Shown piece after piece: positions 27,113 through 44,787 of a stretch of DNA of 61,240 nt. A program made the position numbers and the translations under genes. The first letter of the stretch is position 1, and each line of letters opens with the position of its first letter. The stretch covers positions 1-61,240 of the forward strand of contig SVHF01000007.1 of assembly GCA_015055975.1 (NCBI GenBank). Direction: 5' to 3'. This DNA is from Clostridiales bacterium. GTDB taxonomy: Bacteria > Bacillota > Clostridia > Christensenellales > UBA3700. The notes beneath the pieces are model-generated. The model saw only the letters and a list, made by a program, of their open reading frames with translations, made no database searches and had not been told where the DNA came from.

Positions 27113-27448
27113 ATGGCAAGTTATATTTTAAGCAGTGAAAAAGAAATAATTAAGGATATTTCAAACAAGATTAAAAAGAAGAGAATCAGTTTGAATTTAT
27201 CTCAAGAATACGTGTCAAAAAAGACAGGTCTATCTATGCACACTATTTCAAATATAGAAAGTGGAAAATCGTTTACTATTGAAAGCTTAATAAAGGTTAT
27301 GCAAGTGTTGGGAATAGTAGAGAATTTAAAAGGGCTTATAGACGATCCGGTATTAGGCCCAGATGAAATACACATGCCATATGAGAAACAAAGAGTCAAG
27401 AATTCGAAGAAAAAAGAAGAAAATAGCACTTGGGAGTGGGGGCAATAA
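27113..27448 (+). CDS. hipB: HipB-like XRE antitoxin
   Basis: The 111-residue protein has an HTH_3 domain (about 13-68, with LNLSQEYVSKKTGLSMHTIS) and a charged C-terminal tail. It sits directly before hipA with a TAATG overlap, the standard HipBA order, so it should bind HipA and repress the operon. I use the ATG at 27113; an in-frame TTG at 27098 would extend it by five residues but lies at the predicted transcript start. Confidence 0.85.
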   Translation: MASYILSSEKEIIKDISNKIKKKRISLNLSQEYVSKKTGLSMHTISNIESGKSFTIESLIKVMQVLGIVENLKGLIDDPVLGPDEIHMPYEKQRVKNSKKKEENSTWEWGQ

Positions 27449-28798: not shown

Positions 28799-28839
28799 GC
28801 GTTAAATGTATAATATAGACGTTTGAAAGAGGAATAGAT

Positions 28840-30804
28840 ATGGACAAGAAAGAAAAATTTTATATTACAACACCTATATATTACCCATCAGGAAAGTGGC
28901 ATATTGGAACTTGCTACACAACTATTATTTGTGATGCTATAGCAAGATTCAAAAGACTACAAGGTTATGATGTGTTTTATTTAACAGGAACAGACGAACA
29001 TGGCCAAAAGATTCTAAAGGTTGCGGAAGCTGCAGGAGTTCCAGTTAAAGATTATATTGATGGAGTTGTTAATAACTTAAAAGATTTATGGAAACTTTTA
29101 GATATTTCATATGATAAGTTCATAAGAACTACAGATGATTATCATGAAAAGGCAGTCCAAAAGATATTTACAAGATTATATGAACAAGGAGATATTTATA
29201 AATCTTCATATGAAGGTTGGTATTGTACACCTTGCGAAAGCTTTTGGACAAAGACACAACTTGTAGATGGAAAGTGTCCAGATTGTGGAAGAGAAGTTCA
29301 ATTAACAAAAGAAGAAAGCTACTTCTTCAAGATGAGCAAATACCAAGATAGAATTCAAAAATTAATTGAAGATAACAAAGAATTCTTACAACCTGCAACT
29401 CGTCAAAACGAGATGCTTAACAATTTCATAAAGCCAGGTCTTCAAGATTTATGCGTATCTAGAACATCATTTGATTGGGGTGTTAAAGTTCCATTTGATC
29501 CAAAGCACGTAGTTTACGTTTGGATTGATGCTTTAACAAACTACATAACAGCACTAGGTTATGGCTCAGATGATGATTCTCTATTTAAAAAATATTGGCC
29601 AGCAGATATCCACATGGTTGGAAAGGAAATCGTAAGATTCCACTCTATTATATGGCCAGCTATTTTAATGGCTTTAGATCTTCCACTTCCAAAGAAGGTA
29701 TATGGTCACGGTTGGCTTTTATTTGGTAACGACAAAATGTCTAAATCAAAAGGAAACATTGTTGATCCATTTATTCTTTGTGATAGATATGGGGTTGATG
29801 CTCTTCGTTATTATATGCTAAGAGAAGTTTCTTTTGGACAAGATGGTTCATATACAAATGAAACATTCTTAAAGAGAATTAATGGCGATTTATGTAACGA
29901 TTTAGGAAACCTTGTTTCAAGAACTGTTGCAATGGTAGAACAATATTTTGGTGGCGTAATTCCTGCACCAAAAGATGTAGAAGATGTAGATAATGATTTG
30001 AAGCAAACACTAAATGCTATGTATAAAGATGTTCAAGATAACATGGATAAATTATATATCCCAGAAGCTTTAGAGAGCATTTGGAGGGCAATTGCTCGTA
30101 CAAATAAATACATTGATGAAACAACGCCATGGGCATTAAATAAAGATGAAGCTAAAAAGGGAAGATTGGCAACAGTTATGTATAACCTTTGCGAATCTAT
30201 AAGAATGATAGCAATTATCTTGCAACCATTCTTAACAAAGAGCCCAGAGCTTATATTCGAAAAGCTAGGCATTAAAGATGCGTGCTTAAAGTCTTTTGAA
30301 AGCTTGGCTTTTGGAGCAAAGATTGATGGAAACAAAGTAAACAAGGGTATTAACTTATTTAACAGATTAGATTTAAATAAGGAACTTGCTGAAATGGATA
30401 AGATTGCTGAAGAACAAAAAAAGCAAGCAAAAGCGGAGCAAAAAAAGAAAATGGAAGAAAATGTAGTTACAATTCCAGAAATTGGTATTGAAGAATTTGA
30501 AAAGGTACAACTAAAAGTTGGGAAAGTTTTGGAATGTCAAAAGGTAGAAAAGGCAGATAAATTATTATGCTCAAAAATAGATTGCGGCGAAGCTGAGCCA
30601 AGAACTATTGTATCTGGTATAGCTAAATACTACACACCAGAAGAAATGGTAGGAAAGAGCGTTATTGTTGTTACAAACCTAAAGCCAGTTAAGCTTCGTG
30701 GAATTTTATCTCAAGGTATGGTACTTTGTGCATCCGATGAAGAGGGCAAATTATCTTTAGTTGCACCAATTGCTGAAATGAAGCCAGGTTCAGATATTAG
30801 ATAA
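28840..30804 (+). CDS. metG: methionine--tRNA ligase with C-terminal tRNA-binding domain
   Basis: Charges tRNA-Met. The class I core shows TPIYYPSGKWHIG (HIGH-like), a zinc knuckle with CTPC near residue 129 and a second CPDC pair, and KMSKSKG near 299. An anticodon-binding helical domain follows, then a lysine-rich linker and an EMAP-II/Trbp-like OB domain (about 545-654). The 654-residue length fits the long Bacillota form. A TATAAT at 28809-28814 and GAGGA lie upstream. No T-box element is visible in the short leader. The stop codon overlaps the tatD start. Confidence 0.96.
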   Translation: MDKKEKFYITTPIYYPSGKWHIGTCYTTIICDAIARFKRLQGYDVFYLTGTDEHGQKILKVAEAAGVPVKDYIDGVVNNLKDLWKLLDISYDKFIRTTDDYHEKAVQKIFTRLYEQGDIYKSSYEGWYCTPCESFWTKTQLVDGKCPDCGREVQLTKEESYFFKMSKYQDRIQKLIEDNKEFLQPATRQNEMLNNFIKPGLQDLCVSRTSFDWGVKVPFDPKHVVYVWIDALTNYITALGYGSDDDSLFKKYWPADIHMVGKEIVRFHSIIWPAILMALDLPLPKKVYGHGWLLFGNDKMSKSKGNIVDPFILCDRYGVDALRYYMLREVSFGQDGSYTNETFLKRINGDLCNDLGNLVSRTVAMVEQYFGGVIPAPKDVEDVDNDLKQTLNAMYKDVQDNMDKLYIPEALESIWRAIARTNKYIDETTPWALNKDEAKKGRLATVMYNLCESIRMIAIILQPFLTKSPELIFEKLGIKDACLKSFESLAFGAKIDGNKVNKGINLFNRLDLNKELAEMDKIAEEQKKQAKAEQKKKMEENVVTIPEIGIEEFEKVQLKVGKVLECQKVEKADKLLCSKIDCGEAEPRTIVSGIAKYYTPEEMVGKSVIVVTNLKPVKLRGILSQGMVLCASDEEGKLSLVAPIAEMKPGSDIR

Positions 30805-31574
30805 TGATAATAGATTCTCATGCACATTTAAATGATGAAAGATTAATGCCAAAAGCCAGCGAGATTGTAGCTGGCTTTAAGGCAAATAATATTGAAAGTT
30901 GCATAATTGCTGGCTTTGACTATAAATCATCGAAATTGGGCGTAGAATTGGCTGAAAAATATAATCAATGGGCATTAATTGGAACTCACCCAGAAGAAAT
31001 TGAGGAAATAAACGACCTTATATTAAATAAATATAAGGAACTAGCAAAAAATAAGCGCGTTGTAGGAATTGGTGAGATAGGACTAGATTACTATTATGAA
31101 GAAAACCCACCACGCGAAAAACAAATTGAAGCGTTTGAAAGACAAATCGTAATGGCCGATGAAGTAGGACTTCCTATAGCGCTTCATGTTAGAGATGCAT
31201 ACGGAGATACATTAGATATACTTCAAAATATGCATGCACATTTAAATAATGGAATATTATTACATTGCTATTCTTCATCACAAGAGATGGTAGATAGGTT
31301 CTTAAAATTTGATTGTTATTTTGCTTTAGGCGGAGCAATTACTTTTAAGAACGCTAAAAAAGAAGATGTAATAAAGAAAATTCCAATTGATCACTTGCTT
31401 GTTGAAACGGATTGTCCTTATTTAACACCACACCCACATCGTGGCGAGACAAATGAGCCAAAGTTTATAAATCTTACAATAGATAAGATTGCAAGTGTAC
31501 TAGATATTGATAGACAAGAGATTATAGATATAACAAATAAGAATACGAAAAGGTTATTTAAAAAGATAATATGA
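30804..31574 (+). CDS. TatD-family metal-dependent hydrolase (DNase)
   Basis: The 256-residue TIM-barrel protein shows the TatD metal ligands: DSHAHL, GEIGLDYYYE, LHVRDAY, LHCYSS and VETDCPYLTPHPHRGE. TatD enzymes are 3'-5' DNases or RNases that act in DNA repair and RNA quality control; this branch (YcfH/YabD-like) commonly follows metG in Bacillota. It overlaps metG by one base and the radical SAM gene by four, so the three are translationally coupled. Confidence 0.92.
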   Translation: MIIDSHAHLNDERLMPKASEIVAGFKANNIESCIIAGFDYKSSKLGVELAEKYNQWALIGTHPEEIEEINDLILNKYKELAKNKRVVGIGEIGLDYYYEENPPREKQIEAFERQIVMADEVGLPIALHVRDAYGDTLDILQNMHAHLNNGILLHCYSSSQEMVDRFLKFDCYFALGGAITFKNAKKEDVIKKIPIDHLLVETDCPYLTPHPHRGETNEPKFINLTIDKIASVLDIDRQEIIDITNKNTKRLFKKII

Positions 31575-32161
31575 AAAATATAGTTTATGAAATTGGAACA
31601 AGTTTATATATAAACGCAACAAACAGATGCTCAAATGCCTGCGTATTTTGCGTTAGAAACAATAAAGACTTTGTATATGGAGATCTATGGTTAGATGAAG
31701 AACCAACTCCAGAAGAGGTAATTGATGCTCTAAAAAAGCACGATTTATCTAAATACAAAGAAATAGTGTTCTGCGGATACGGAGAGCCTACTTATAGAAT
31801 GGACGTTATAGAAAAGGTATCTTTCTTTGCGCATGTAAATAGATTAAAAACTAGAATTAATACAAATGGACATGCAAACTTAATAAATGGCAAAGATGTT
31901 ACTGACACAATCGTTAAATGCATAGATACAATTGGCATTTCTTTAAATGAAGTAGACGAAAAAGATTATGACGACATTTGTTTGCCTGTATATAAGAATG
32001 CTTATGAAGAAATGTTGAACTTTGCAAAGCTATGTATAGAAAAAGGAGGAAATGTTATTTTCTCAGTTGTAGATTGCATAGGAAAGGCAAAAATAGAAAA
32101 AGCAAAAAAGATAGCAAAAGAAATCGGTGCTAAATTAAGAGTTAGAGAAGAGATTAAATAG
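31571..32161 (+). CDS. TatD-linked radical SAM protein
   Basis: The 196-residue protein has the radical SAM motif CSNACVFC (C20, C24, C27) to bind a 4Fe-4S cluster, with the GYGEPT glycine-rich SAM element near residue 72. It is short for the superfamily and has no extra cluster domain. It matches the small radical SAM family that occurs next to TatD genes in Bacillota. The reaction is not known. It overlaps tatD by four bases and is the last gene before a strong terminator. Confidence 0.85.
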   Translation: MKNIVYEIGTSLYINATNRCSNACVFCVRNNKDFVYGDLWLDEEPTPEEVIDALKKHDLSKYKEIVFCGYGEPTYRMDVIEKVSFFAHVNRLKTRINTNGHANLINGKDVTDTIVKCIDTIGISLNEVDEKDYDDICLPVYKNAYEEMLNFAKLCIEKGGNVIFSVVDCIGKAKIEKAKKIAKEIGAKLRVREEIK

Positions 32162-32190
32162 TTGTTTTGAACAATTCAAGTTAATATGAT

Positions 32191-32240
32191 ACCTCCAAAG
32201 TGGAAATATAAAAAAGTAAAGGCTTTGGAGGTCTTTTTTT
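32191..32240 (+). terminator. terminator of the metG-tatD-radical SAM operon
   Basis: ACCTCCAAAG pairs perfectly with CTTTGGAGGT across a 22-nt loop, followed by CTTTTTTTG. Confidence 0.88.
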
Positions 32241-32327
32241 GTAATAAAATTGCATAGCATAGGCGCAAAAGTACAAGTGTTACATTTCGTCATTATCACT
32301 TTTATAATATCGTTGAAACATATCCAC

Positions 32328-32379
32328 TTGACTTTCATAAAATAAGTAGATAAACTATAATTACCCTACAACATAGGGT
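32328..32379 (+). promoter_or_regulatory. promoter and operator of the small XRE module
   Basis: TTGACT (32328-32333) and TAAACT (32351-32356) are 17 bp apart. The palindrome ACCCTA-N5-TAGGGT (32363-32379) covers the predicted start of transcription and is a natural site for the XRE protein of the operon. Confidence 0.65.
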
Positions 32380-32400
32380 GAATCTAACAAGGTGGTATCC

Positions 32401-32574
32401 ATGGATGAATTAGTATATTCTGTTATTTCGGACTTTCAAGCAGTGCAAGAAAAGTTCGTTGGGTTGACTCTGTATAATGTAATAAAAGATTGTAAGGCTC
32501 TTGGGATTAAGGAAAGAGAAAAATTAAAAGATCTTGTAGAAGAATATGCTAGAAGCTTAGAGGAGAAGAGATGA
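32401..32574 (+). CDS. 57-residue protein, unrecognised, partner of XRE protein
   Basis: The predicted product is short and charged, and helical throughout: after the start it reads DELVYSVISDFQAV..., ending in a Glu/Lys/Arg-rich helix. AAGGTGG lies 5 nt before the ATG at 32401; an in-frame GTG at 32392 overlaps that site and is less likely. It overlaps the XRE gene by four bases. By position it could be a small toxin, but the sequence shows no toxin-family motif I recognise. Confidence 0.6.
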   Translation: MDELVYSVISDFQAVQEKFVGLTLYNVIKDCKALGIKEREKLKDLVEEYARSLEEKR

Positions 32575-32969
32575 TTAATATTCAAGAATTATTAAAATTA
32601 AAAAAGGTAGAAGTAAAATATTTAAACCCAAGCGTAGAAGGACAATTTATTAAAGAATTTAGACAAACGCATGAGTTAACCCAAACAGCGTTGGCAAATA
32701 TTATGGGAGTCACAAAAAAAGCTATAGAAAAATGGGAGCAAGGCGCAAATAAAGTAAAAGGTAGCGCCGCTATACTAATACAACTGTTAGATGAACATGA
32801 AGAGCTAATAGACGAAATTAGACAAGTAAGCGTTATTGCGGAGAACGGAGAAAGAACGGAGTTAGTAAATATTAAGGATAAAGAAGCAATAGCAAAGTCG
32901 TTGTTCGGGGTTATCCCAAATGACGCAAATTTAGAAGAAGAAAAACAAAAGAGAAAAAGTAGAATATAA
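32571..32969 (+). CDS. XRE regulator with antitoxin-like tail
   Basis: The 132-residue protein has an HTH_3 domain (about 25-75, with LTQTALANIMGVTKKAIEKW), similar to HigA-2/MqsA-type regulators, then a linker and a C-terminal AKSLFGVIPNDANLEE element. A similar element occurs in the toxin-binding tails of some type II antitoxins. It follows a 57-residue partner with a 4-nt overlap, and a palindrome sits at the promoter. I infer an autoregulated TA-like module. No RelE/HigB gene is nearby. Confidence 0.7.
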   Translation: MINIQELLKLKKVEVKYLNPSVEGQFIKEFRQTHELTQTALANIMGVTKKAIEKWEQGANKVKGSAAILIQLLDEHEELIDEIRQVSVIAENGERTELVNIKDKEAIAKSLFGVIPNDANLEEEKQKRKSRI

Positions 32970-32970
32970 T

Positions 32971-33027
32971 AGTGTTGCTAAGAGAAAAAGGATTAAACCA
33001 TTATCATCAAAGCAACACTTGTTTTAT
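32971..33027. terminator. long-loop hairpin between convergent genes
   Basis: AGTGTTGCT (32971-32979) pairs perfectly with AGCAACACT (33011-33019) across 31 nt; TGTTTTATT follows on the plus strand. It probably ends the XRE operon and may also serve the minus-strand gene. Confidence 0.6.
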
Positions 33028-33033
33028 TAATAA

Positions 33034-36000
33034 TTAGCAAACTAAATCCCAAGTAAGATTTATATTACCATTTGAATTATTAACTAACGCTTCAAATTGA
33101 GCTTTAGTGCCATTAAAGTGGATGGCTGTAATATTGCATTTGTAGAATGCATAATCTCCAAGAGTTGTTAAATCAGAAGATATAGTAATTTCTTCAATGC
33201 TAGAGTAAGCAAATGCAAATTCACCAATAGATGTTGCAGAAGATAGATTAATTGATGTTAATCCTTCGCAACTTGCAAACGCTTCATCGCCAATTGTAAT
33301 TACATTAGACAAATCAACATTTGAAAGATTCATACAGAAGCTAAATGCGCCTTCTTGAATGTTTGTTATAAATGTTGTGTCTACAGAAGTAATGTTATTA
33401 TTTCTTCTAAATGCATTTGTCGCAATAGTTGTTATTTCTATATCATTCCAAATTCTTGGAATTACTACATGAGCTTCAGTTCCACTATATGCAGTAACTT
33501 GATTTCCAGAAATGGTTAGAGTTTTTGGTTTAACTAGTGCATATACTTTTGTGATGATATCGCCAGTTGTATCGCTATATGAATCAACAGTTGTAAATGT
33601 TGAAATAGCAACGTCTTTATCATATATATCTTGTAGATACCAAGCACTAAAGTCATATTCTTCGTTTTCATATGGAGTTAAAGCAACCGAATGCTCTATA
33701 TCAAAAGTGAATTCAGCAACTTTTGTATTTCCAATATAACCATGAACATAATATGGTGTTAATTCCCATTTAGCGAAAATCTCAGTATTAGCAAGAATTT
33801 TAACAGTAGATGAAGATGTTATTTGAGTTGTATATAACGAATCTAGATACCAACCAATAAATGTGTAGCCATGCTTTGTTAAAGTTGGCAATTCTCCATA
33901 TGTTAAATCATATGTAACAGTCTTTTTATTTGGAGTTATCTCTACATCTAAAACAGGCTTATATGTGATTTCATATGTATTTGCTACAAATACTGCGTCG
34001 ATTGTTAAATTACCAATAACTCCAGTATCTTTGATTGATGAAATGCTATTTCCGTTATAGCTCCAACCAGTTAGTGTATATCCGTCCTTTGTAGAATCGT
34101 CAGCAACTTTTAATACAAGATCTTCATCAAGTGTTGTAACGTTGAACGATTTAATATTTTGAGTTGCGCTACCGCCATATAGATTATAGGTAATTGTGTA
34201 ATTAACAGGCGTCCAAACAGCTGTGAATTCCAAATCATGATCTGGCATTGTTGCAGGAATCTCATTATCCCATTCAACAAATGTATAGTGAAGTTTTGTT
34301 GGATCACTTGGAGCTACGATAGGTTGATTATATCCAACAACAATAGGATCAATAGGTGTTGCGCCTTCTCCTGTTACAAATGTAATAGTATGATCTACAG
34401 GTATTTCATTGAATTTAGCAAAGAATTCAATATCGCCAGTAATTGTTACAGAATCCTCAACAGGATCGCCTGTAAATGAGCTATTTAAATACCAACCTGC
34501 AAATTCATAAGTATACTTATTTGCAATTGCAGCTTTTTCAGGAGTAGCAATATCTGAAATGTCTAAATCAGTACCATATTCTAATTTGTTAGACACAAAG
34601 AAATCTTCGCCATTGAAGAATGTGTAAGTGTATTTTCTTAGAGCTGGCGTAAATACAGCTTTATATGAAACGTCGCCATGAAGTTCTTGGTTATCTTCAT
34701 AATCTTCGCCATCTAAAGTTACCCACTTTGTAAATTCATAAGTGTATTGAACTGTGTCATCTTTTGTTGGGTTGGCTGGAGCAGATACAATTGTCCCGAA
34801 GTCAACCGTTTGTGTCTCATAAACAGTTTCTCCATCGTCCATGAAGAATGTGTAGGTATATTGATTTATTGTTGCGTTGAATTTTGCATAATATTCTACA
34901 TCTTTAGTGATTTTTGTTCCCTCAACAAAGTTTGTTGAAGAATCGTTTATATCTTCGAACCAGCCAACAAATGCGTATGAATAATCTACCTCGGCGTAAT
35001 CTTGAGGATTAACAGGAGCAATGATTACAGAATTATAATCAATTGTGCTTGTTTTTGAAATGTTAGAGCCAATATAGAATGTGTATGTATATTGTCTTGT
35101 ATGTTCTTCGTATTGAGCTATATATGTTGTTGTTTTTGCAACAATATCGCTTGTATAGTTCCAACCAATAAATGTATATGTTGTAGATATTGTTGGAGAT
35201 TTATCTAAAGTCTTTGATTCATTTTCTAAATCGCTAGTAGGATCTAGCGTATCTCCATATTTATATGTAGCAACAACTTCGTCGTCATCACCAAACTTCC
35301 AAGTAATATAATATGGGATAACATGGCTTTCAAATTTTTCTTTTAGAGTTATTGTGTTATCTTTGCCAATATTTAATTGAGAAGAAGATGTAAGTTTTGT
35401 TTCAACGCCGCTGTTATCAAAATACCAACCATCAAAGGTGTATGTATAGGTGCTGTCTTTTTCTTTGCTTCTTTCGATGCTATTGATTTGTGCAAATAAG
35501 TCTTCATAATCTTCAACATAGTATGTACCCTGAGTTAATGTTTCGCCATTTTCATAAAGTAAGACATAGTAAGATTTGTCGCCATCTACTTCATAACTAG
35601 CTTTAATAGTGGTGTTATCTTTAATAGTAAAGTTAGTTTCAATTGGATTGTCATTGCCGTCCATGTTTGATGCATAGAATACACCACCAATAGTCCAGCC
35701 ATTAAAAGTAAATGTTCTAAGCTTGCTATTAACTTCAGCTTGATAAGACTTGATTCCTTCAGAATAACCAAGGTTTAAATCGATTATAGTTCCATATTCT
35801 ATAGTTAAAGAATCTACAAGATTATTGCTATCGCTAACTTGGATAATATTATTGTCTTTATCTACCCAGGTGACAGTATAAGATAAGATATGAGAATTAA
35901 ATGTGGCTTCAATTACCATATCTTGAGTAACTGTTGTTGGAGTTATATTTGTGTCTTTAATTACCCATTTATTAAATGTATATTCATAACCATCCTTAAC

Positions 36001-37404
36001 GTAAGATGTAGGATATGAAGGGAATATAATTGATGTGTTGTAGTCAACTAAAGTTGGACTTACTATTTCTTCGCCATTTACTTCAAAGGAATAAGTAAAC
36101 TTTTTCGAAACAGCTCTAAATTGAGCAGTGTATTCTTTATCTTGAGTAACAGAAGTTAAAGATGGATCCCAACCATCAAAGACATATGTATGTCCTTCGT
36201 CTTCTTCTTTAGATATATCCAAAGTCGATGGAGCATGAGGCTCATCTCCGTAGAAATAAGTTTCACTTTCTTGGCGATTTTCATCAACAATCCATGTGAT
36301 TGTATATGGAATGTTGCTCAATGCTGGATAAAGGGTAATATTTGAAGCAGGCATTAAAGTTCCTTCGAATAATACATTATCTAAAAGCCAACCATCAAAA
36401 GTTTTTCCAGGAGCAAGCTTTGAGGAGTAATCGTAAAATGCAATTTCTTCGTCTGTTTTATATGTTATTTCTTGTAATAGAGTATCGTTTGTATCTTTAA
36501 ATGTAAGCGTGAAAGGAAGTGCTTGCCATTTTGTAAATACAGATATAGCTTGCTTATCTATTTCATGAGAAAAATCAAAAGGTGTATTGAAATGAGAATC
36601 AGCATAAAAGCCAACAAATGTAAAACCTAATGGAGCTAAAGATAAAGTCTTTTGTCTTAAAGCTTCTTCTGAAATTAAAGATGTTTCTTTTTGTTCTTCA
36701 AAGAACATTAATTCATTATGAACACCAAGAACATGGATTGTAGAGATATTATCTTTCCATGCAGCATAATATGTAAGATTTGTAGCAGTAGAGGTCTTTA
36801 GTGTTTTTACTTCCGTTGCTTTTAAATTTTCAACAGTGTAGTTTTTACCAACATAATTAACATTTGACCAATATGCAAAAGAGCAGCCCTTCTTTGTTGC
36901 AAGTGCAGCATTTTTTATAGCAGGAAGATCAAAATCTTCATCTTCTATGGTGTATGTTTTTGTGTAATATGCACCAAGATTTTCTTGGCCTTCAATTGCT
37001 TCATGGTATTCATAACCTAAATTGTTGGCAAGTGTACCGCCAACTGCATATAGAGTTAAAGTGTATTCGATTGGAGCAAAAGATTGCTTTATTGAATTTT
37101 CGCCATTAGATAGAGCGGCATCAATAGATTCATAAGTTGTTCCATCTTCGGATACCCAAATAGATTGATATCCCTTTTTGTTTGGAATATTTACATCGCC
37201 ATCTTTAGAATATGTCCCAAGTGGCTCTCCGTTTTCCCCATATAATACGATAGATGTTGCAGGTTTGGTGAAAAATCGTATAGCTAAAACAATACCTGTT
37301 ATAAAGACAGCAATAACCATTATGATTATAAGAGTGTCTCTAATATACTCTTTTTGTCTTCTTTTAATGACAAGCTCAGCTTTGTCTTCAGTTCTCCCTT
37401 CCAT
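33034..37404 (-). CDS. giant membrane-anchored surface protein with InlB-type B-repeats and C-terminal LRRs
   Basis: The 1456-residue protein has a short basic cytoplasmic tail and one membrane segment (about 23-45), and no signal cleavage site or LPXTG, so it should be anchored N-terminus-in. About 15 tandem units of roughly 60-85 residues follow. Each opens with a strand such as YTYTFFMDDGE or YTITWIVDENR and holds an F-x-G-W core, the pattern of Listeria-Bacteroides (InlB B/Flg_new) repeats. The last 130 residues are BspA-type leucine-rich repeats (AFASCEGLTSINL, GDYAFYKCNI). A role in adhesion or cell-surface binding is inferred. AAAGGTG precedes the ATG. Confidence 0.85.
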   Translation of the reverse strand: MEGRTEDKAELVIKRRQKEYIRDTLIIIMVIAVFITGIVLAIRFFTKPATSIVLYGENGEPLGTYSKDGDVNIPNKKGYQSIWVSEDGTTYESIDAALSNGENSIKQSFAPIEYTLTLYAVGGTLANNLGYEYHEAIEGQENLGAYYTKTYTIEDEDFDLPAIKNAALATKKGCSFAYWSNVNYVGKNYTVENLKATEVKTLKTSTATNLTYYAAWKDNISTIHVLGVHNELMFFEEQKETSLISEEALRQKTLSLAPLGFTFVGFYADSHFNTPFDFSHEIDKQAISVFTKWQALPFTLTFKDTNDTLLQEITYKTDEEIAFYDYSSKLAPGKTFDGWLLDNVLFEGTLMPASNITLYPALSNIPYTITWIVDENRQESETYFYGDEPHAPSTLDISKEEDEGHTYVFDGWDPSLTSVTQDKEYTAQFRAVSKKFTYSFEVNGEEIVSPTLVDYNTSIIFPSYPTSYVKDGYEYTFNKWVIKDTNITPTTVTQDMVIEATFNSHILSYTVTWVDKDNNIIQVSDSNNLVDSLTIEYGTIIDLNLGYSEGIKSYQAEVNSKLRTFTFNGWTIGGVFYASNMDGNDNPIETNFTIKDNTTIKASYEVDGDKSYYVLLYENGETLTQGTYYVEDYEDLFAQINSIERSKEKDSTYTYTFDGWYFDNSGVETKLTSSSQLNIGKDNTITLKEKFESHVIPYYITWKFGDDDEVVATYKYGDTLDPTSDLENESKTLDKSPTISTTYTFIGWNYTSDIVAKTTTYIAQYEEHTRQYTYTFYIGSNISKTSTIDYNSVIIAPVNPQDYAEVDYSYAFVGWFEDINDSSTNFVEGTKITKDVEYYAKFNATINQYTYTFFMDDGETVYETQTVDFGTIVSAPANPTKDDTVQYTYEFTKWVTLDGEDYEDNQELHGDVSYKAVFTPALRKYTYTFFNGEDFFVSNKLEYGTDLDISDIATPEKAAIANKYTYEFAGWYLNSSFTGDPVEDSVTITGDIEFFAKFNEIPVDHTITFVTGEGATPIDPIVVGYNQPIVAPSDPTKLHYTFVEWDNEIPATMPDHDLEFTAVWTPVNYTITYNLYGGSATQNIKSFNVTTLDEDLVLKVADDSTKDGYTLTGWSYNGNSISSIKDTGVIGNLTIDAVFVANTYEITYKPVLDVEITPNKKTVTYDLTYGELPTLTKHGYTFIGWYLDSLYTTQITSSSTVKILANTEIFAKWELTPYYVHGYIGNTKVAEFTFDIEHSVALTPYENEEYDFSAWYLQDIYDKDVAISTFTTVDSYSDTTGDIITKVYALVKPKTLTISGNQVTAYSGTEAHVVIPRIWNDIEITTIATNAFRRNNNITSVDTTFITNIQEGAFSFCMNLSNVDLSNVITIGDEAFASCEGLTSINLSSATSIGEFAFAYSSIEEITISSDLTTLGDYAFYKCNITAIHFNGTKAQFEALVNNSNGNINLTWDLVC

Positions 37405-37676
37405 AAAGATAACACCTTTTTGTTTTTTAATATGCTTGATTTTAATTTATTAAATTATGGAATGTCTAGAAATCTAGTTTATAAATAATTAAAATATTAC
37501 ATAAATTTTATAATTATTATATATCAATAGTATGTGTTTTGAAAAATAAATTGAATAAATAGAGCCAAGACAAGCATTAAGGCAAACAAAAAAAATATAT
37601 AAAATCGTTTAAAAAATTGAAATCCCTCCTAAATTTACATGAACATATGTTAAGTAGTACAAAAACGTCATCATAG
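37405..37676. other. intergenic region, AT-rich, mostly without gene
   Basis: This holds the minus-strand promoter area of the giant surface protein (a TATAAT near 37510 with a weak -35) and a small CTAGA-AA-TCTAG repeat at 37466-37477. A minus-strand open frame at 37524-37630 encodes a hydrophobic, single-helix-like peptide (KRFYIFFLFALMLVLALF) behind AGGAGGG, but no ATG, GTG or TTG lies at the right spacing. I do not call it a gene. Confidence 0.4.
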
Positions 37677-37736
37677 AAACACTAGGTGTTTTATTCGTGT
37701 TGATTCCAACTCTTTTGGGTGCTATGTTATATAACA
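37677..37736 (+). promoter_or_regulatory. promoter with two palindromes ahead of the accessory operon
   Basis: TTGATT (37700-37705) and TATGTT (37723-37728) are 17 bp apart. AAACAC-TAG-GTGTTT (37677-37691) lies just upstream of the -35, and the perfect palindrome TGTTATATAACA (37725-37736) overlaps the -10 and start region. This suggests regulated expression of the operon. Confidence 0.65.
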
Positions 37737-37755
37737 CATTTAAGGAGGAAACAAA

Positions 37756-38916
37756 GTGTTTGGCGTTTATAAATTAAATAGAGAAGAATGGATGAAAGCT
37801 AAATTAAACTATGCGCAAAAGAATGTAGTACTTGAGCGAGAAGATGGCGTAGGCCGAGTTGATTATTTATGTGGTTCAATTTTAACCAAAACGATAAAAG
37901 AAATATATGATAGGCTGAATGAAGATATTAACTTTAATGTGTTAAATGATTTTTCTACTTCAGATATTCAAAGGCTAACGAAATATTCATATCCAATCGT
38001 ATCTAAGATAGTTGATTTATTTAAAGATATTGGGCTATTTGTCGTAAGGGATAATGCTATGGCTATAGATAATTGTATAAATAATTATTTAAATAATCCA
38101 ATTGAGAATTATTTAGTTTTGCGAGGGTTTGGGGAAGATATAAATCGGGAAATAGTGTGTTTACATATTGAAAGCATATGGCACAATAAATTATTGAGCT
38201 GGTTTAATTTTAGGATAAATCCCAAAAATCATGGTTTGGAAAATATAAATAATGTGATGAAGATGCCAAATAATAGAATGTTTGATTTTGCAAAAATCGG
38301 ATTTACATTGAGAATTGCTCTATCTAAGGGAATAGTAATCTGCAATTCAAAACAGGATGCTAAGGTGTTAAATGTTGAATTGGAGCGAAATAACGAGGCA
38401 TCAGATTTTATTAACAGGACAATCTATATTGATGACTATAATGAGATATCAAATAAATACAAAAAGAAAATAAGCAGGATCAAATCTCATGTAGACTACT
38501 CGTCAATGGAAGACGATGTGTTTTTAATTAGATCTATAACATTCGATAATAAAAGAGAATATACACTTGACGATTTTAAAAAAGAATATAAAGGCTTGAT
38601 TGCTGCGCAAAACTTATATCTTAAAGAATGTGAGCTATATGATAAAGAAAAATTTAATAAAATAAGATCAAAAGCAAGCAAGGATGAGTTGCTTACAATA
38701 TTACATGAAGAATTTTTAGAAGTTAAAAGTTATTACCTAGTAATAGGCAAATTCGTTAATTTTTATAATTGGATTGTAGACAATCAGGATATTTTAAGAC
38801 CAGAAAAGAGATTAAAGCTTAGCTATTTGCAATGTATAAATAGAGAAGCAGAAGATGCGATAAATGAGACTGTTAGCAAGTATGGGTTAGGGAAATATGG
38901 GGATTCATTAGTCTAA
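37756..38916 (+). CDS. 386-residue protein, unrecognised; first gene of accessory operon
   Basis: It starts at a GTG with a perfect AAGGAGG 7 nt upstream. The product is soluble with no signal peptide or membrane segment. The N-terminal 110 residues have a helical character (STSDIQRLTKYSYPIVSKIVDLFKDIG) and could form a winged helix, with YPIVSKIVDLFKDIGLFV as the possible recognition part. The C-terminal 120 residues are Lys/Glu-rich helices. No catalytic motif or known family is recognised. It opens a set containing an unknown 174-residue protein, a P-loop ATPase and a UDG-like protein, so a shared job is likely. Confidence 0.6.
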   Translation: MFGVYKLNREEWMKAKLNYAQKNVVLEREDGVGRVDYLCGSILTKTIKEIYDRLNEDINFNVLNDFSTSDIQRLTKYSYPIVSKIVDLFKDIGLFVVRDNAMAIDNCINNYLNNPIENYLVLRGFGEDINREIVCLHIESIWHNKLLSWFNFRINPKNHGLENINNVMKMPNNRMFDFAKIGFTLRIALSKGIVICNSKQDAKVLNVELERNNEASDFINRTIYIDDYNEISNKYKKKISRIKSHVDYSSMEDDVFLIRSITFDNKREYTLDDFKKEYKGLIAAQNLYLKECELYDKEKFNKIRSKASKDELLTILHEEFLEVKSYYLVIGKFVNFYNWIVDNQDILRPEKRLKLSYLQCINREAEDAINETVSKYGLGKYGDSLV

Positions 38917-39025
38917 AATATTAAATCACAAGTGAGAAATCAATAATATGATGTATTTAAGATTAAATTCATCAAAAAAGGCAAAAAGAGAGCTAGGAAC
39001 TGATTCAGAATAAATAGGTTTATAT

Positions 39026-39550
39026 ATGAAAGAAAATAAAAGGATAAGATTTGTAAATATTAACGATATAAATATTTTTGAGTTTAATATGCCCAAAAAG
39101 TTCTATTCGAATTGCATTTTTATATTAAAGAAAGAAATAAGCGAAGATACAAAATTCTTTAAAAAATTGGTTATTAATCATCTTTTATTTAATGTTTTTA
39201 CGAATGTACACACAAGACGGTTTATATTTGTTGAGCCGGTTTCTTATGAGTATATTAAAGATATTGTTGAATCGCATGTAATAGACAAGTGCTATTGGTC
39301 AAATTCAATTACTATAGAACAATATACAATGGTTAGTGAGATTGCTTCGATAATTAGATATGGAAATAGAAATATTACAATCTTTTATGATGATAAAGAT
39401 TGTGTGATGAACGAAATTGATTATGCCGTGAGTCATGTGCATTATATATGTTATGACGATGAGGGTATTAGAGCGTTTTATACACGAATTGTTGACGATT
39501 ATAAGCAAAGGGTTAAAGATGCTTTTAGTAAACAGATAGTAAAACAATAA
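39026..39550 (+). CDS. 174-residue protein, unrecognised
   Basis: The small soluble protein has mixed strands and helices, with aromatic-rich stretches such as HLLFNVFTNVHTRRFIFVEP and ITIFYDDKDCVMNE. The first 110 residues resemble half of a Rossmann-like or RecA-like sheet, but no P-loop is present. It lies 109 bp after the previous gene and 27 bp before the ATPase gene, with only a weak ribosome site. Together with the neighbours it belongs to the accessory operon. No family is recognised; it might be a partner or degenerate paralogue of the ATPase. Confidence 0.55.
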   Translation: MKENKRIRFVNINDINIFEFNMPKKFYSNCIFILKKEISEDTKFFKKLVINHLLFNVFTNVHTRRFIFVEPVSYEYIKDIVESHVIDKCYWSNSITIEQYTMVSEIASIIRYGNRNITIFYDDKDCVMNEIDYAVSHVHYICYDDEGIRAFYTRIVDDYKQRVKDAFSKQIVKQ

Positions 39551-39577
39551 TATTTATATGAGGGATGAGGTTGGCTT

Positions 39578-40180
39578 ATGATAGAAAGAAAAAGTGGATG
39601 TGTAACAATCATAAAAGGCAGACCAGGCTGTGGAAAAACAAATCTTGCACTAAGAGATGCATTATATAATGTTGAGATAGAAAAAAGTGTGATAATATAT
39701 GTGTCTTTGGCGGCTAGCAAAGAAAGGCTAGTTAAGCAATGTAAATATGCTGCTTCACGAGATGTCAACATTGAAGAATATGCGAATTTTGTAATAAAAG
39801 ACGATATCTATTATGATATAGACAAGCTGACTAATGATATCAAAGAAAGTAAGCCTAAAACGGTATATATAGATTCGTTGTTTCTTTTAAATATTGGCAA
39901 GATGAAACTAAATTTTAATTTGTTAGAAAGGTTTATATACTTATGTAAAAAGTTAGGCGACATAGCATTAGATTTAAATGTTGAAATAGTAGCATTAGTG
40001 TTAGAACATAGAGCTTATGAAAAAAGTATGGATATTGTTTATAATGGACCACTTGGATATAATTGTATAAAAGAACATATTAATAATAAAGTCATTCCTT
40101 TATTTATGAGAAAAGATGGAACGATAATAAACGTAAGCAATTATGACAAGTTTGAGACAAATTATGAGGGATTATTATGA
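39578..40180 (+). CDS. RecA/DnaB-like P-loop ATPase
   Basis: The 200-residue protein is little more than an ATPase core. The Walker A motif GRPGCGKTN is at about residues 14-22, and the next strand, VIIYVSLAASKERLVKQ, matches the DnaB/KaiC/RadA pattern. A Walker B-like strand, KTVYIDSLFLL, is at about 93-103, and a later strand, VEIVALVLEH, ends in a polar sensor-like position. It lacks the N-terminal domain of replicative helicases. GAGG precedes the ATG, and the gene overlaps the UDG-like gene by four bases (ATGA), a sign of coupled function. The substrate, DNA or protein, is unknown. Confidence 0.75.
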   Translation: MIERKSGCVTIIKGRPGCGKTNLALRDALYNVEIEKSVIIYVSLAASKERLVKQCKYAASRDVNIEEYANFVIKDDIYYDIDKLTNDIKESKPKTVYIDSLFLLNIGKMKLNFNLLERFIYLCKKLGDIALDLNVEIVALVLEHRAYEKSMDIVYNGPLGYNCIKEHINNKVIPLFMRKDGTIINVSNYDKFETNYEGLL

Positions 40181-41040
40181 GCAAAACGACAGAGAATAGA
40201 CATTATACAGAAGAATACGATGAAGAATTAAAATCCATAGATTTTTATAGAATCCATCCAGAATTATTACCATATATTGGTAGTCAATTCAAAACCGCAA
40301 AAAGGAAGATTTTGTTAATCGGAGAAAGCCATTATATAAATGATTATTGGCGCGTAGAAGAGAATTGGGAAAACTATGATTTGTTATTAAAAATTTGGGG
40401 GCAAAAAGATTGGCATGAAATATTGATGCCAAATCAATACGATAAAGATGGCAAGAATTTGGGTAAGAAAGATAAAGATTACGAGAGTTGGTTTAATACT
40501 AGAGTGCACGCAAGTCGTAGTATGCCAGGAGAAGATAGAGAGGACGCAATTACGGGATTAATACAAAATCCTATTAGAGTTTTATGTGAAGATGATATCA
40601 ATTTCTTTGGGGAGGAATATAGCCCAAATTTAGCAGAGAGTGTTGCTTTTATTAATTTCTTTCAATTTCCGAGCTTAAAGAATGGGAAAACGGTTTGGGG
40701 AGCCGTAGACGATTTGTATAAGAAAGGGAAAGATAAAAACCGTGTATGGTGGGAATTATTTGATTATTCGCTAGAAATAATTGTTAAAGTTATTAATGTT
40801 ATAAAGCCGGATGTTGCTGTATTATTTGCAGCAGATTTTTGCGGACAATATACATTAGACAAAATCAGAAATGCGATTAATGATGTAGGCGCATGTCATG
40901 TCGATGCTACGTATCATGCTTCTGATGGTAGAGTGTGGAAGCGAGTTTACAACAATGAATACAAAAATATGATAAATATTACACCAAAGGATAAATTTGC
41001 TTTAATAATAAAAGATTATCTAACAAGCACGCATAGTTAA
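40177..41040 (+). CDS. uracil-DNA-glycosylase-superfamily-like protein
   Basis: The 287-residue protein shows the order of short motifs seen in UDG-fold proteins: ILLIGESHY (about 45-53) as the first strand and loop, VAFINFFQFPS (about 151-161) as the second, KPDVAVLFAAD (about 209-219) as the third, and DATYHASDGR (about 246-255) as the His-containing end loop. UDG-fold enzymes cut the base-sugar bond of altered DNA bases. The GESHY form belongs to a poorly studied branch, so glycosylase activity is inference. A long insert (about 60-150) is unlike classic UDGs. It is last in the operon with the P-loop ATPase. Confidence 0.5.
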   Translation: MSKTTENRHYTEEYDEELKSIDFYRIHPELLPYIGSQFKTAKRKILLIGESHYINDYWRVEENWENYDLLLKIWGQKDWHEILMPNQYDKDGKNLGKKDKDYESWFNTRVHASRSMPGEDREDAITGLIQNPIRVLCEDDINFFGEEYSPNLAESVAFINFFQFPSLKNGKTVWGAVDDLYKKGKDKNRVWWELFDYSLEIIVKVINVIKPDVAVLFAADFCGQYTLDKIRNAINDVGACHVDATYHASDGRVWKRVYNNEYKNMINITPKDKFALIIKDYLTSTHS

Positions 41041-41077
41041 TGTTTATATAAGAACTATTTTTATTGAGATAAAAAAA

Positions 41078-41098
41078 GACAATATTTTGAATATTGTC
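41078..41098 (-). terminator. minus-strand terminator hairpin
   Basis: GACAATATT and AATATTGTC form a perfect 9-bp stem with a 3-nt loop. On the minus strand it is followed by TTTTTTT; on the plus strand only AATTAAG follows. It therefore suits a minus-strand transcript, although no intact minus-strand gene remains here. Confidence 0.7.
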
Positions 41099-41287
41099 AA
41101 TTAAGCGAAATGGCTTTCTACTTACTACCATTATAAAGAAATCATTTGCAGATATTAACTTCATAAGGTGGTGAGTATAAGCGCCAAGTGGTGAACCTTT
41201 GGTTACACGTTGTACCATACGCTGTTTATCTGAATTAATTAAGCATTTATCGACGTTTTCATAATCTGGTTCAAGTTGAGATACTGA
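41099..41287 (-). pseudogene. remnant of a minus-strand coding region
   Basis: A 63-codon stretch without stops, read on the minus strand just before a minus-strand terminator, encodes a normal-looking globular sequence (SVSQLEPDYENVDKCLINS, SPLGAYTHHLMKLISANDFF, FIMVVSRKPF). It begins after an in-frame TAA, and the same frame reads open for about 30 more codons upstream of that stop. There is no start codon with a ribosome site at its upstream end. I infer the 3' end of a decayed gene. The family is not recognised. Confidence 0.4.
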
Positions 41288-41504
41288 TTAAAGCGTTATT
41301 TGTAAGCGCATTTGGCTTGAGAAAATTATAAGTTGAACTTTAAAAAAATCTATATGAAATATATGACACAAGCGATAATAGTTTAATGCTTACGATTCCT
41401 TGATCTTCAAAAAAGTCTATATTTTATCGTAATAGAATAGTTTGAAAAAGTACATCGCTATTGTCGATAACTATTTTGAAAAGCATTACCATATTTTAGG
41501 GGGA
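41288..41504. other. non-coding stretch between the two accessory operons
   Basis: Apart from the short minus-strand frame noted above, no open frame with a start and ribosome site, no tRNA-like fold and no strong hairpin was seen. It is AT-rich and probably decayed DNA. Confidence 0.4.
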
Positions 41505-41565
41505 TTGACTATTATCATTATCATTACTATACTTTAATTATTAAAGAAACCACAATTTATTGTGG
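41505..41565 (+). promoter_or_regulatory. strong promoter and two palindromes ahead of the second accessory operon
   Basis: TTGACT (41505-41510) and TATACT (41528-41533) are 17 bp apart. CTTTAAT-T-ATTAAAG (41532-41546) covers the predicted start, and CCACAA-TTTA-TTGTGG (41550-41565) follows in the leader. Both are perfect and could be operators or leader hairpins. The spacer repeats ATTATC/ATTATC/ATTACT. Confidence 0.7.
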
Positions 41566-41596
41566 ACAATTTTAGAATAGCAATATAGGGGTGTAT

Positions 41597-42295
41597 GTGA
41601 TACATAGTATTAACAATTTTAAATTGTTTCAGTCGCTGTTTGTTAACCCGTGCGGAGACCAAGTCGTTGGCACTATTTGTTATAATGGGCAATTTGCAAC
41701 GGCAAGTGGCAATGCAACTATGAACTTTGAAACAAAGACTAATAACGCAGCCCACTCTAGAAGAGATATTAATTATTCACAATATTCAAAAGGAAACAAT
41801 AAAACTATTGTAATTTTATTAGAGAGCCCACATATAGACGAATTTAATATACAAGGGCAAACGTATACAACAGCTCCAGCATGGGGCAAAACTGGCACGA
41901 TGATAAACAAATATTTTATTATAGCGTTAAATAATAGCATTCGTGCGATACAAAATAATTGTCAAAATTTTTTAACAAATATTACAACTTATGATGTTTT
42001 GTTAGTTAATGCTATTCAATATCAATGTAGTTTAGGTATGCGTCCAATTAATATTGGGATAAGGAACAAAGTGTTTGCTTGTTTGTGGAATAAAACTTCA
42101 GATAGTTTTAGACAAGATTTGATTGAAAGATTAAACATATTGAACCCGGATTTGATTGTTAATGCTTGTACGTCGGAGTTAAAAAAAAGATTTTGCAATA
42201 ATAATGCAATTATGCCTGGTTTGGCAAATTGGAATGTAATGATGAACGCGAGTAGTCATCCAAGTGTATGGAATCGTTATACACAGATATTTTAG
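41597..42295 (+). CDS. second UDG-superfamily-like protein
   Basis: The 232-residue protein has motifs in the order of family 4-type uracil-DNA glycosylases: TIVILLESPHIDEF (about 66-79), where EaPG-type loops lie; APAWGKTGTMINKYF (about 89-103); DVLLVNAIQYQCS (about 131-143); NPDLIVNACT (about 180-189); and SSHPSVWNR near the C-terminus, like the HPS loop. There are no iron-sulfur Cys ligands. I choose the GTG at 41597, after GGGGTG, over the GTG at 41591 inside it. It opens an operon with a small membrane protein. Catalytic activity is inference from motif order. Confidence 0.5.
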   Translation: MIHSINNFKLFQSLFVNPCGDQVVGTICYNGQFATASGNATMNFETKTNNAAHSRRDINYSQYSKGNNKTIVILLESPHIDEFNIQGQTYTTAPAWGKTGTMINKYFIIALNNSIRAIQNNCQNFLTNITTYDVLLVNAIQYQCSLGMRPINIGIRNKVFACLWNKTSDSFRQDLIERLNILNPDLIVNACTSELKKRFCNNNAIMPGLANWNVMMNASSHPSVWNRYTQIF

Positions 42296-42311
42296 GGGGC
42301 GGAGAAAATAA

Positions 42312-42647
42312 ATGAAATGGGTTATAGCAAATGACGTGATAGCTGCCATAGGGGTTAGTGTAGGATTTTTGGTTATATATGATGGAATTCCAGGCGGATG
42401 GCAAGCAATAACTTGGGTTTCATTTGCAGCATGGATAATTAAGAGCTTCATGCGCTTATTTGATGAGGATCATGGATGTGGAGGACAAATTGCAATATTT
42501 TTATTGGAGTTTGGTTTGCCATTTTTGGTAGCAGGATTGCATATGATAGGATACGAGAGCGGGCATGCAGGCTTATTTGTATGCACAATGGCTATGGCCG
42601 CGAGTGCTATTTCAGAGCCAATTGTATCAGCGTTTATAGACGAGTAG
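42312..42647 (+). CDS. small membrane protein, unrecognised
   Basis: The 111-residue protein has three to four hydrophobic segments (about 5-25, 31-45, 58-80 and 86-104) with a short charged loop containing RLFDEDHGCGG. GGAG precedes the ATG. Placed between a UDG-like gene and a 331-residue gene, it could be a membrane effector or an anchor for the other products. No family is recognised. Confidence 0.6.
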   Translation: MKWVIANDVIAAIGVSVGFLVIYDGIPGGWQAITWVSFAAWIIKSFMRLFDEDHGCGGQIAIFLLEFGLPFLVAGLHMIGYESGHAGLFVCTMAMAASAISEPIVSAFIDE

Positions 42648-42692
42648 ACGATATTTAATAATATAATAATAGAAATTAGCAAAGGAGAATAT

Positions 42693-43688
42693 ATGAAATT
42701 TACAAAGAATATTGATGGAAGATTAAGTGATGAAATAAACAGCAAATCAACAAAAGCATTTTATGATAGTGTCGTTAATGCGATTGAAACAGACAATGTC
42801 TCTGTGTTTGCTACGCAATTGCAAATATATATAACAAGAATCGGATTAATTGTAAGCGAATGTTCTCTTGAAAAAAAAATGGAAAAAGGCTATATGCTTG
42901 GAGCAATACAATACTTATGTATCGATGTTTGCCATAGCAGGCCACTATGGCATTACTTGCAAGCAATTGATGTTAATTATCAAGGAAATGTCGGTAAACA
43001 TACATTAAAAGATATTGATATAAACATTGGGGAGTGTATTGGACAATATAACAAATTAATAAACGAGTTAATTAAACAAACGGGAAGTAAAGTATTAGGT
43101 AAATGCAAGTTGCGCCCGAAAACAACGAAAAAGGAAAAGAAAATCTTTAAAGATAATAATGTTGAGCAGTTTGGAATACTCAACACGAAGAAAACATTTA
43201 CAAAAAGGGAGATAAAATATTCTATTAAGGCTTTAGGTAAATATTGCGTAGATAAATATAACCATATCGTGCAGGTTGGTATAGTTGTGAAAACAGAAAA
43301 CAGTTATCAATGCGGAAGCATGCGTGCTGGTATAAAATGGGCGCAAAACACACAAGGAATAGAAGGCTATTTCCCCATAAAAAAAAGAAATGTAGGATAT
43401 TCTGACGAAACTGTAATACTTGAGATCCCACAATCAATGTTAAAAGGAAACGCAGTGGAGGTTAACTGTTGTGTTAGTGCGTTTGAAAGTACGGCATTTT
43501 CGGGATATAAATTGTCAAACTGTGAGGTGTCACCGAATTCACACAAGTTGATTTGTTATCTAGATGAAGAGGTAAACGACACATATTACATAAAAGATGT
43601 AGAAAATAAACAAAATAATAATCAAGGGGAAAAGATAGATTATTATGAGAAAATACTTAATGAATTTAGAAAAAAGGAATCCAACTGA
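42693..43688 (+). CDS. 331-residue protein, unrecognised
   Basis: The soluble protein has a helical N-terminal part (about 1-130) and a very Lys-rich linker (about 135-170). The C-terminal part (about 175-290) is strand-rich, with VQVGIVVKTENSYQCGS, EGYFPIKKR and ETVILEIPQSMLKGN, then a charged tail. The layout suggests a helical interaction domain joined to a beta-sandwich. No nuclease, protease or nucleotide-binding motif is visible. AAAGGAG precedes the ATG. It is the third gene of the second accessory operon, 45 bp after the membrane protein. Confidence 0.6.
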   Translation: MKFTKNIDGRLSDEINSKSTKAFYDSVVNAIETDNVSVFATQLQIYITRIGLIVSECSLEKKMEKGYMLGAIQYLCIDVCHSRPLWHYLQAIDVNYQGNVGKHTLKDIDINIGECIGQYNKLINELIKQTGSKVLGKCKLRPKTTKKEKKIFKDNNVEQFGILNTKKTFTKREIKYSIKALGKYCVDKYNHIVQVGIVVKTENSYQCGSMRAGIKWAQNTQGIEGYFPIKKRNVGYSDETVILEIPQSMLKGNAVEVNCCVSAFESTAFSGYKLSNCEVSPNSHKLICYLDEEVNDTYYIKDVENKQNNNQGEKIDYYEKILNEFRKKESN

Positions 43689-43782
43689 AGAAGAGTATTT
43701 GGCATATAAGACAATAGAACTTGAATGCAAATTTCGAGATAAAGTAGATATAGCGAAGAAATTATTAAAAAATATAACTTAG
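43645..43782 (+). CDS. possible 45-residue protein at the end of the accessory operon
   Basis: The frame starts inside the end of the previous gene and reads MRKYLMNLEKRNPTEEEY, then a charged helix rich in Lys and Glu. An inner ATG at 43660 gives 40 residues. GGGG lies 15 nt upstream of the first ATG, too far to be a strong ribosome site. The amphipathic sequence looks real rather than random, but evidence is thin. Confidence 0.35.
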   Translation: MRKYLMNLEKRNPTEEEYLAYKTIELECKFRDKVDIAKKLLKNIT

Positions 43783-43795
43783 TTTTTAATTAAAG

Positions 43796-43831
43796 TTGCA
43801 ATAACGGGCAGCTTCAAAATGTTTATTGCAA
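43796..43831. repeat. inverted repeat closing the accessory region
   Basis: TTGCAATAA and TTATTGCAA are perfect 9-bp arms with an 18-nt loop, between the last accessory gene and rsmA. No T-tract follows, so it may be a weak terminator or a boundary repeat. Confidence 0.5.
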
Positions 43832-43947
43832 TGAAGAAGAAAGGCTTTAATAAATATTTGATAGATTAGGAATTTATTAAAAAGCATTTACATAAATTAT
43901 AATTTATGAAAAACTATTAAGAGTAAGAAACACGCAAGTTGGGGTTC

Positions 43948-44787
43948 ATGAAAACAGTTAACGAGATTCTAAAAGATAATAATTTTAAGTTCCAAAAGAA
44001 TTTTGGCCAAAACTTTATTACAGATACAAACCTTTTAAAGGCAATGGTTGATGATGCAGGAATTGAAAGCGGGGATATAGTTGTAGAAATAGGACCAGGT
44101 GCCGGCACCTTAACTAGAGAGCTTTCTAATAAAGCTAGTAAAGTATTTGCTTTTGAAATAGATAAAAACTTAGAGCCCATCTTAGCAGAAACATTAAAAG
44201 AGAACCAAAATGTTGACGTTATATTTAAAGATATACAAAAAGTCAAAGAAGAAGAATTAATTGATATAATTGGCACAAAAGATTTTAAAGTTGTTGCTAA
44301 TTTACCATACTATATAACAACACCAATTATTATGCGCTTTTTAGAAGGAAATATTTTACCAAAGAGCATTACAATAATGGTGCAAAAAGAAGTAGCAGAG
44401 AGGCTTTGTGCTAAAGAAAACACAGAAGAATTTGGAGCAATAACGCTTGCTATAGCGCTAGAAGGGGATGCAAAATATTTACGTGATGTATCAAGAAAGA
44501 TGTTTACGCCACAGCCAAATGTAGATAGTGCAATAGTTAGAATAGATATAAACGATAAATATAAAGAAGTAGATAAAAAGGCTGTAAAAAAGCTTATACA
44601 TGCAGCATTTTTAATGAGAAGAAAAACGCTTATAAACAACATAGAAGCAGGATATAAATTAGATAAGAAAGTCTTGGCTGCCGTTCTTAGCGGCTTAGGA
44701 TATAACGAGAAAGTTCGTGGCGAAGCTTTAAGCATTGATGATTATATAAAAATTGCAAAGGGAATAGATGAATTACTTGTTCTTTGA
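43948..44787 (+). CDS. rsmA: 16S rRNA (adenine1518/1519-N6)-dimethyltransferase
   Basis: Dimethylates two adjacent adenines near the 3' end of 16S rRNA during 30S assembly. The 279-residue protein has QKNFGQNFITD, the SAM-binding EIGPGAGTLT, the catalytic NLPYYITTP motif and the C-terminal helical domain with FLMRRKTLINN. I choose the ATG at 43948, after GGGG, rather than a TTG at 43939. A TATAAT lies at 43898-43903 without a clear -35. The end overlaps the exonuclease gene by 20 bases. Confidence 0.95.
   Translation: MKTVNEILKDNNFKFQKNFGQNFITDTNLLKAMVDDAGIESGDIVVEIGPGAGTLTRELSNKASKVFAFEIDKNLEPILAETLKENQNVDVIFKDIQKVKEEELIDIIGTKDFKVVANLPYYITTPIIMRFLEGNILPKSITIMVQKEVAERLCAKENTEEFGAITLAIALEGDAKYLRDVSRKMFTPQPNVDSAIVRIDINDKYKEVDKKAVKKLIHAAFLMRRKTLINNIEAGYKLDKKVLAAVLSGLGYNEKVRGEALSIDDYIKIAKGIDELLVL

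Follow-up and report, generated by a model that had tools for sequence, protein, structure and literature searches.

The DNA analyzed here (a 61,240-nucleotide stretch, referred to as the window) comes from a gut-type bacterium and encodes P4, a protein with a predicted UDG fold and an unusual GESHY motif, together with a probable partner protein, P1. Our best explanation of the locus, to which we give about an even chance, is that P4 is a mobile base-excising glycosylase that acts with P1 and protects the cell against phage or foreign DNA in the manner of Brig1 and Brig3. The class of anti-phage DNA glycosylases is recent and small (Brig1-3). If the explanation is true, the GESHY family, with its different active-site loop and its members in chromosomal islands, phages, plasmids, and integrons, would broaden this class and hint at further phage base modifications.

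The four genes of 386, 174, 200, and 287 residues that were originally predicted were confirmed as ORFs, all on the forward strand. P1 (37756-38916, 386 aa) starts with GTG and has AAGGAGG just 5' of the start codon; P2 (39026-39550, 174 aa) is a protein without an assigned family; P3 (39578-40180, 200 aa) is a solitary RecA-fold P-loop ATPase of the DnaB_C/KaiC-like type; and P4 (40177-41040, 287 aa) is the UDG-fold protein of the GESHY family. Gaps of 109 and 27 nt separate P1 from P2 and P2 from P3, and P3 and P4 share the ATGA overlap at 40177-40180. The presence of homologues of P1 and P4 in other genomes shows that both are coding beyond chance.

Predicted fold and motifs of P4

P4 had been described as carrying a GESHY loop in a UDG-like order of motifs, and this was confirmed. 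Structure prediction, which had been proposed as a check on the 287-residue protein, returned a UDG core. The AlphaFold2 model (mean pLDDT 76.5, pTM 0.82; low confidence in the regions of the large inserts, about 51-110 and 251-270) has a core parallel beta sheet in which strands 1, 2, and 4 are each followed by a motif loop, as is the arrangement of the UDG superfamily, and strands 45-49, 156-160, and 241-245 terminate at the three motif positions. When the model was searched with VIA-align, the best 50 entries all belonged to the UDG superfamily (Z 7.0-8.9), and the top match was the S. tokodaii family 4 UDG (4zby) with a modest Z of 8.9 (rmsd 3.8, 165 residues aligned). Foldseek ranked SMUG1 first, at an E of only 5e-3, and a search of a whole-fold viral library gave no match under E 0.1. 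P4 very probably has the UDG fold, and it is likely to be an active DNA glycosylase.

P4 gave no convincing match in Pfam, PADLOC, PHROGs, or NCBIfam, and its profile gave none among PDB chains. The Pfam UDG domain (PF03167) was matched by four of 19 family members (best E 9.3e-4), the window P4 not being among those matched. A comparison of the P4 profile with family 4 UDGs of a related genome (probability 43%, E 2.5e-4) brought motifs A and B into register: GES fell on the GE of GE(A/G)PG, and the HP motifs of the two sides coincided. The motif string of the family reads GESHY ... MNFFQxPA ... LKPDxIVF ... HPxxxWW; at motif B, the window P4 has HA and most members have HP. Nine residues (E50, S51, H52, T108, A157, N160, Q163, P165, and P211) were invariant in all 22 members, which comprise the loci from the genome scan described below and the phage and plasmid copies, and H247 was kept in all 20 members that extend to it. 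N160 would be the counterpart of the base-reading Asn of UDGs, as judged from strand order and not from superposition.

P4 resembles the family 4 UDGs (S. tokodaii 4zby and T. maritima 1l9g/1vk2) in its core fold and motif order, and the GE of motif A and the HP of motif B align, whereas SHY replaces xPG, large inserts are present in P4, and the identity is below 20%. Membership in family 4 was rejected, as the four [4Fe-4S] cluster cysteines are missing; no cysteine was found among the invariant or near-invariant columns of 19 members of the P4 family. UdgX of M. smegmatis is similar in fold (Z about 8) and in the GE of motif A, whereas its GEQPG differs from the invariant S51-H52 of P4, and the His loop responsible for covalent trapping in UdgX was not identified in P4.

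The strongly altered motif A, in which S51 and H52 are invariant in 22/22 members, may change the chemistry of the pocket. P4 could then be a catalytically altered UDG fold that senses or covalently traps abasic or modified DNA, comparable to UdgX, with P1 and P3 as effectors; the high rank of UdgX structures in VIA-align and the existence of the P1 partner are in line with this. However, the expected catalytic positions E50, N160, and H247 are all retained, and an effector is not generally needed, as most P4 relatives, an integron cassette among them, are single genes. We consider a sensor or trap improbable.

Distribution and mobility of the P4 family

An alignment of three P4 sequences was used to scan 84,980 species genomes and retrieved 18 loci; this is a lower bound, as the scan used two peptide patterns. 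P4 was present in three of 200 genomes of the order, and the family is unannotated and thinly scattered. The window sequences of P4 and P1 gave no tblastn match to plasmids and phages. A second P4 match in the window genome (C6, E 5.6e-4) was rejected as spurious, because it lies inside a HipA-like ORF.

The GESHY genes of Vibrio rotiferianus and Photobacterium aphoticum share 95.7% DNA identity over 676 bp while their flanking genes differ, and the identity is confined to the cassette (copies at L020 2091-2865 and L021 6985-7660). The Vibrio cassette is followed by a repeat of 120-126 bp, with a second copy further downstream, which starts with TAACAA and ends with GCGTTA. Integron attC sites start with TAACAA and end with GCGTTA. 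The fold of the repeats was only weakly stable (z -1.5 and -0.7), and the integron assignment was made from the repeats at the cassette boundaries, their TAACAA...GCGTTA ends, and the cassette-limited identity. As this relative is a cassette, we argue that the glycosylase can act alone. Further relatives were found on a conjugative Pseudomonas plasmid and on two phage contigs of IMG/VR (L052 and L053), one adjoining a phage integrase and the other located between a DNA methylase and a terminase. From these locations, the P4 family is seen to be mobile cargo, and there is a real chance that it represents an unrecognized family of mobile glycosylases.

In Clostridia, a WYL regulator lies within 2.5 kb of the P4 relative in six of the 18 loci, and five of these six also have a short FtsH-like AAA-M41 protease within 3.7 kb. 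The recurring set of a WYL gene, an AAA-M41 gene of ~420 aa, and a GESHY gene was identified in L008, L009, L010, L015, and L025. The AAA-M41 query scored 315-538 bits at the other four P4 loci, compared with at most 217 bits across 118 genomes of the class. Additional neighbors include a solitary DnaB_C ATPase about 2 kb from the P4 relative and an AAA_21 ATPase in L010, and a C5 methylase and Vsr in L025. At another locus (L037 179-4569), the GESHY gene is beside a UvrD-like helicase and an apparent NERD-domain protein, the domains being called by eye.

The occurrence of two relatives on phage contigs, where repair or counter-defence is as likely as defence, favors a different explanation, namely that P4 is a mobile-element glycosylase that serves in repair or acts on the DNA of the element itself (removing uracil or damaged bases) and not in defence. 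The UDG fold is compatible with such a role. However, the host already has ordinary UDG-superfamily genes (two PF03167 matches), and the P4 family, with its very patchy distribution and repeated placement next to WYL regulators, is unlike housekeeping repair genes; we regard repair as the function of P4 as rather unlikely.

Protection against phage or foreign DNA has parallels in WYL-regulated defence loci and integron defence cassettes (PMC12409362), as P4 relatives occur beside WYL genes and as an integron-type cassette, whereas the window operon has no WYL gene. Anti-phage genes are reported to be abundant in the chromosomal integrons of Vibrio (PMC12409362), and no tested defence cassette of the GESHY family was found in the literature searched.

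P1 as the probable partner of P4 and the place of P2 and P3

The P1-P4 locus is also present in the congener G059, and the same locus was found in the public metagenome-assembled genome (MAG) Christensenella sp. SUG1028. In G059, an ORF (L019 5913-6611; 253 aa if an upstream start is taken) matches the N-terminal part of P1, from residue 1 to 221-225, with 34% identity (phmmer/BLASTP, 7.5e-33). Three bases downstream begins a 363-aa ORF (L019 6617-7705), of which the first 90 residues match P1 at about 273-353 (BLASTP 4e-9) and the remainder matches P4 (5e-14). Because the C-terminal part of P1 is fused to a P4 homologue in this congener, P1 and P4 are functionally linked. P1 has a single relative, and its role is read from this one fusion. 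An AbiE-like pair (L039 10493-11949, named by eye) lies 2-4 kb from the P1-P4 locus of the congener.

P1 was found in two of 200 genomes of the order and two of 46 of the family. It gave no convincing match in Pfam, PADLOC, PHROGs, or NCBIfam, none in IMG/VR with single-sequence and alignment searches, and none among PDB sequences. The PHROG matches of P1 and P2 were weak and absent from the congener's P1, and they were discarded. The AlphaFold2 model of P1 built from two sequences was unusable (pLDDT 33.5, pTM 0.23), and no fold is claimed; a winged-helix-like segment at about residues 40-104 is a guess from the secondary structure of that model.

The original assignment of P3 as an ATPase from GRPGCGKTN was correct, as P3 has a Walker A motif and matches PF03796 (DnaB_C, E 5.8e-8) and PF06745 (KaiC, E 4.2e-6), both over the curated cut-off. 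Its relatives in the 200 genomes of the order were found only in frames of ~450-520 aa, as long as complete DnaB/RadA-type proteins. In PADLOC-DB, P3 matched only mad8 (E 0.02), and P1, P2, and P4 matched no defence model. P2 had no significant match in Pfam, PADLOC, NCBIfam, or the PDB (best PHROG E 0.007) and no homologue in the compared P4-family loci.

The original prediction combined all four genes into one ATPase-coupled system. Their common strand, short gaps, and the P3/P4 overlap suggest translational coupling, and the L010 locus has its own solitary DnaB_C-type ATPase, but this ATPase shares only 22% identity with P3 in a poor alignment, and neither P2 nor P3 occurs in the P1-P4 locus of the congener or in any other P4 locus examined. 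Co-occurrence of the four genes in other genomes was looked for, and the unit was not conserved, because P2 and P3 are missing from those loci; only P1 and P4 recur together. A four-gene system is left unsupported and is quite unlikely, and P2 and P3 appear to be additions seen only in this genome.

The pairing of P4 with P1 can be compared with the Brig systems. Brig1 and Brig3 are UDG-superfamily proteins that prevent the replication of phage through excision of modified bases (PMC11078745, PMC13160076), and BapA, the operon partner of Brig3, widens the range of Brig3 (PMC13160076). The best Dali match of Brig1 is the S. tokodaii UDG with a Z of 9.2 (PMC11078745), and P4 shares with it the UDG-superfamily fold and the same best match (VIA-align 8.9). 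The accessory location is common to Brig1, Brig3, and P4, and Brig3, like P4, has an operon partner. P4 differs in the GESHY of motif A, and the likeness was judged by fold and not by sequence; P1 differs in that it is not assigned as a glucosyl hydrolase. An antiviral role is plausible given the mobility of the family and the examples of Brig1 and Brig3, and our analysis puts a defence function of the P4 locus at roughly equal chances for and against. More tentatively, P1 and P4 may constitute a two-component anti-phage base-excision system, in which the GESHY glycosylase is aimed by its partner, and which would belong to a wider, unrecognized mobile family of UDG-fold defence proteins accompanied elsewhere by WYL regulators and a soluble FtsH-like protease.

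We infer the catalysis, substrate, role of P1, and defence function as follows. P4 would flip a non-canonical base from DNA, cut the glycosidic bond, and leave an abasic site. The water-activating residue would be E50 of the motif A loop and the base-reading residue N160, where the second core strand ends; H247 of motif B would have an assisting role. P1 would be a dedicated partner of P4, with a likely role in targeting or activation; its C-terminal segment (273-351) may contact or position the glycosylase, as suggested by the fusion in the congener, and its N-terminal part is probably what recognizes DNA or some other signal of infection. A DNA-stimulated ATPase activity of P3 may assist. 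The P1-P4 pair would be mobile accessory cargo directed against phage or other foreign DNA carrying non-standard bases. With its invariant residues and the P1 fusion, the GESHY model is directly testable.

The accessory island and P5

The accessory placement proposed for the gene set held, as the insertion is absent at this site from two congeners. P1-P4 lie in an island of 11.8 kb (32162..43938) inserted between a radical-SAM gene (31571-32161), which forms the left flank, and rsmA. In the congeners G955 (L035) and G059 (L036), rsmA directly follows the radical-SAM gene or overlaps with it, and blastn aligned window positions 28804-32158 and 43944-44627 to adjacent DNA in both. The island contains, in order, an HTH gene, a surface-type repeat protein of 1456 aa (33034-37404, reverse strand), P1-P4, P5, a 111-aa protein (42312-42647), and a 331-aa protein (42693-43688). 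No integrase or transposase was seen among the island ORFs, and no long repeat flanking the island was found.

The location between a surface protein and rsmA was right in part. The surface-type protein is inside the island and is missing here in the two congeners, and P4 does not adjoin rsmA, as three ORFs intervene, the last being the 331-aa protein. The decayed DNA reported beside the operon was not borne out, 41041-41590 being merely a segment without a convincing ORF. The promoter with two palindromes was likewise not substantiated: the palindromes have 6-bp arms and are at chance level, the palindrome TGTTATATAACA recurs at 16381 within another gene, and the frequency of promoter-like sites in 37400-43940 was not above that in shuffled sequences.

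P5 (41591-42295, forward strand, 234 aa) carries LLESPH, VNAxQxQ, PDLIVNACT, and HPS, and it is possibly a second, divergent UDG-like protein in the island. A Pfam scan of the P5 family gave nothing, and the alignment of P5 with UDG4 was collinear and statistically weak. Homologues on three plasmids (Cupriavidus, Azospirillum, and Rhodovastum) share ESPH, VNAxQxQxSL, and HP. One of these plasmid relatives lies three genes from a DNA methyltransferase. Elsewhere in the window, an AbiE-like pair (6622-8056), a Fic-like ORF (18815-19855), and a HipA-like ORF (27430-28725) were named by eye.
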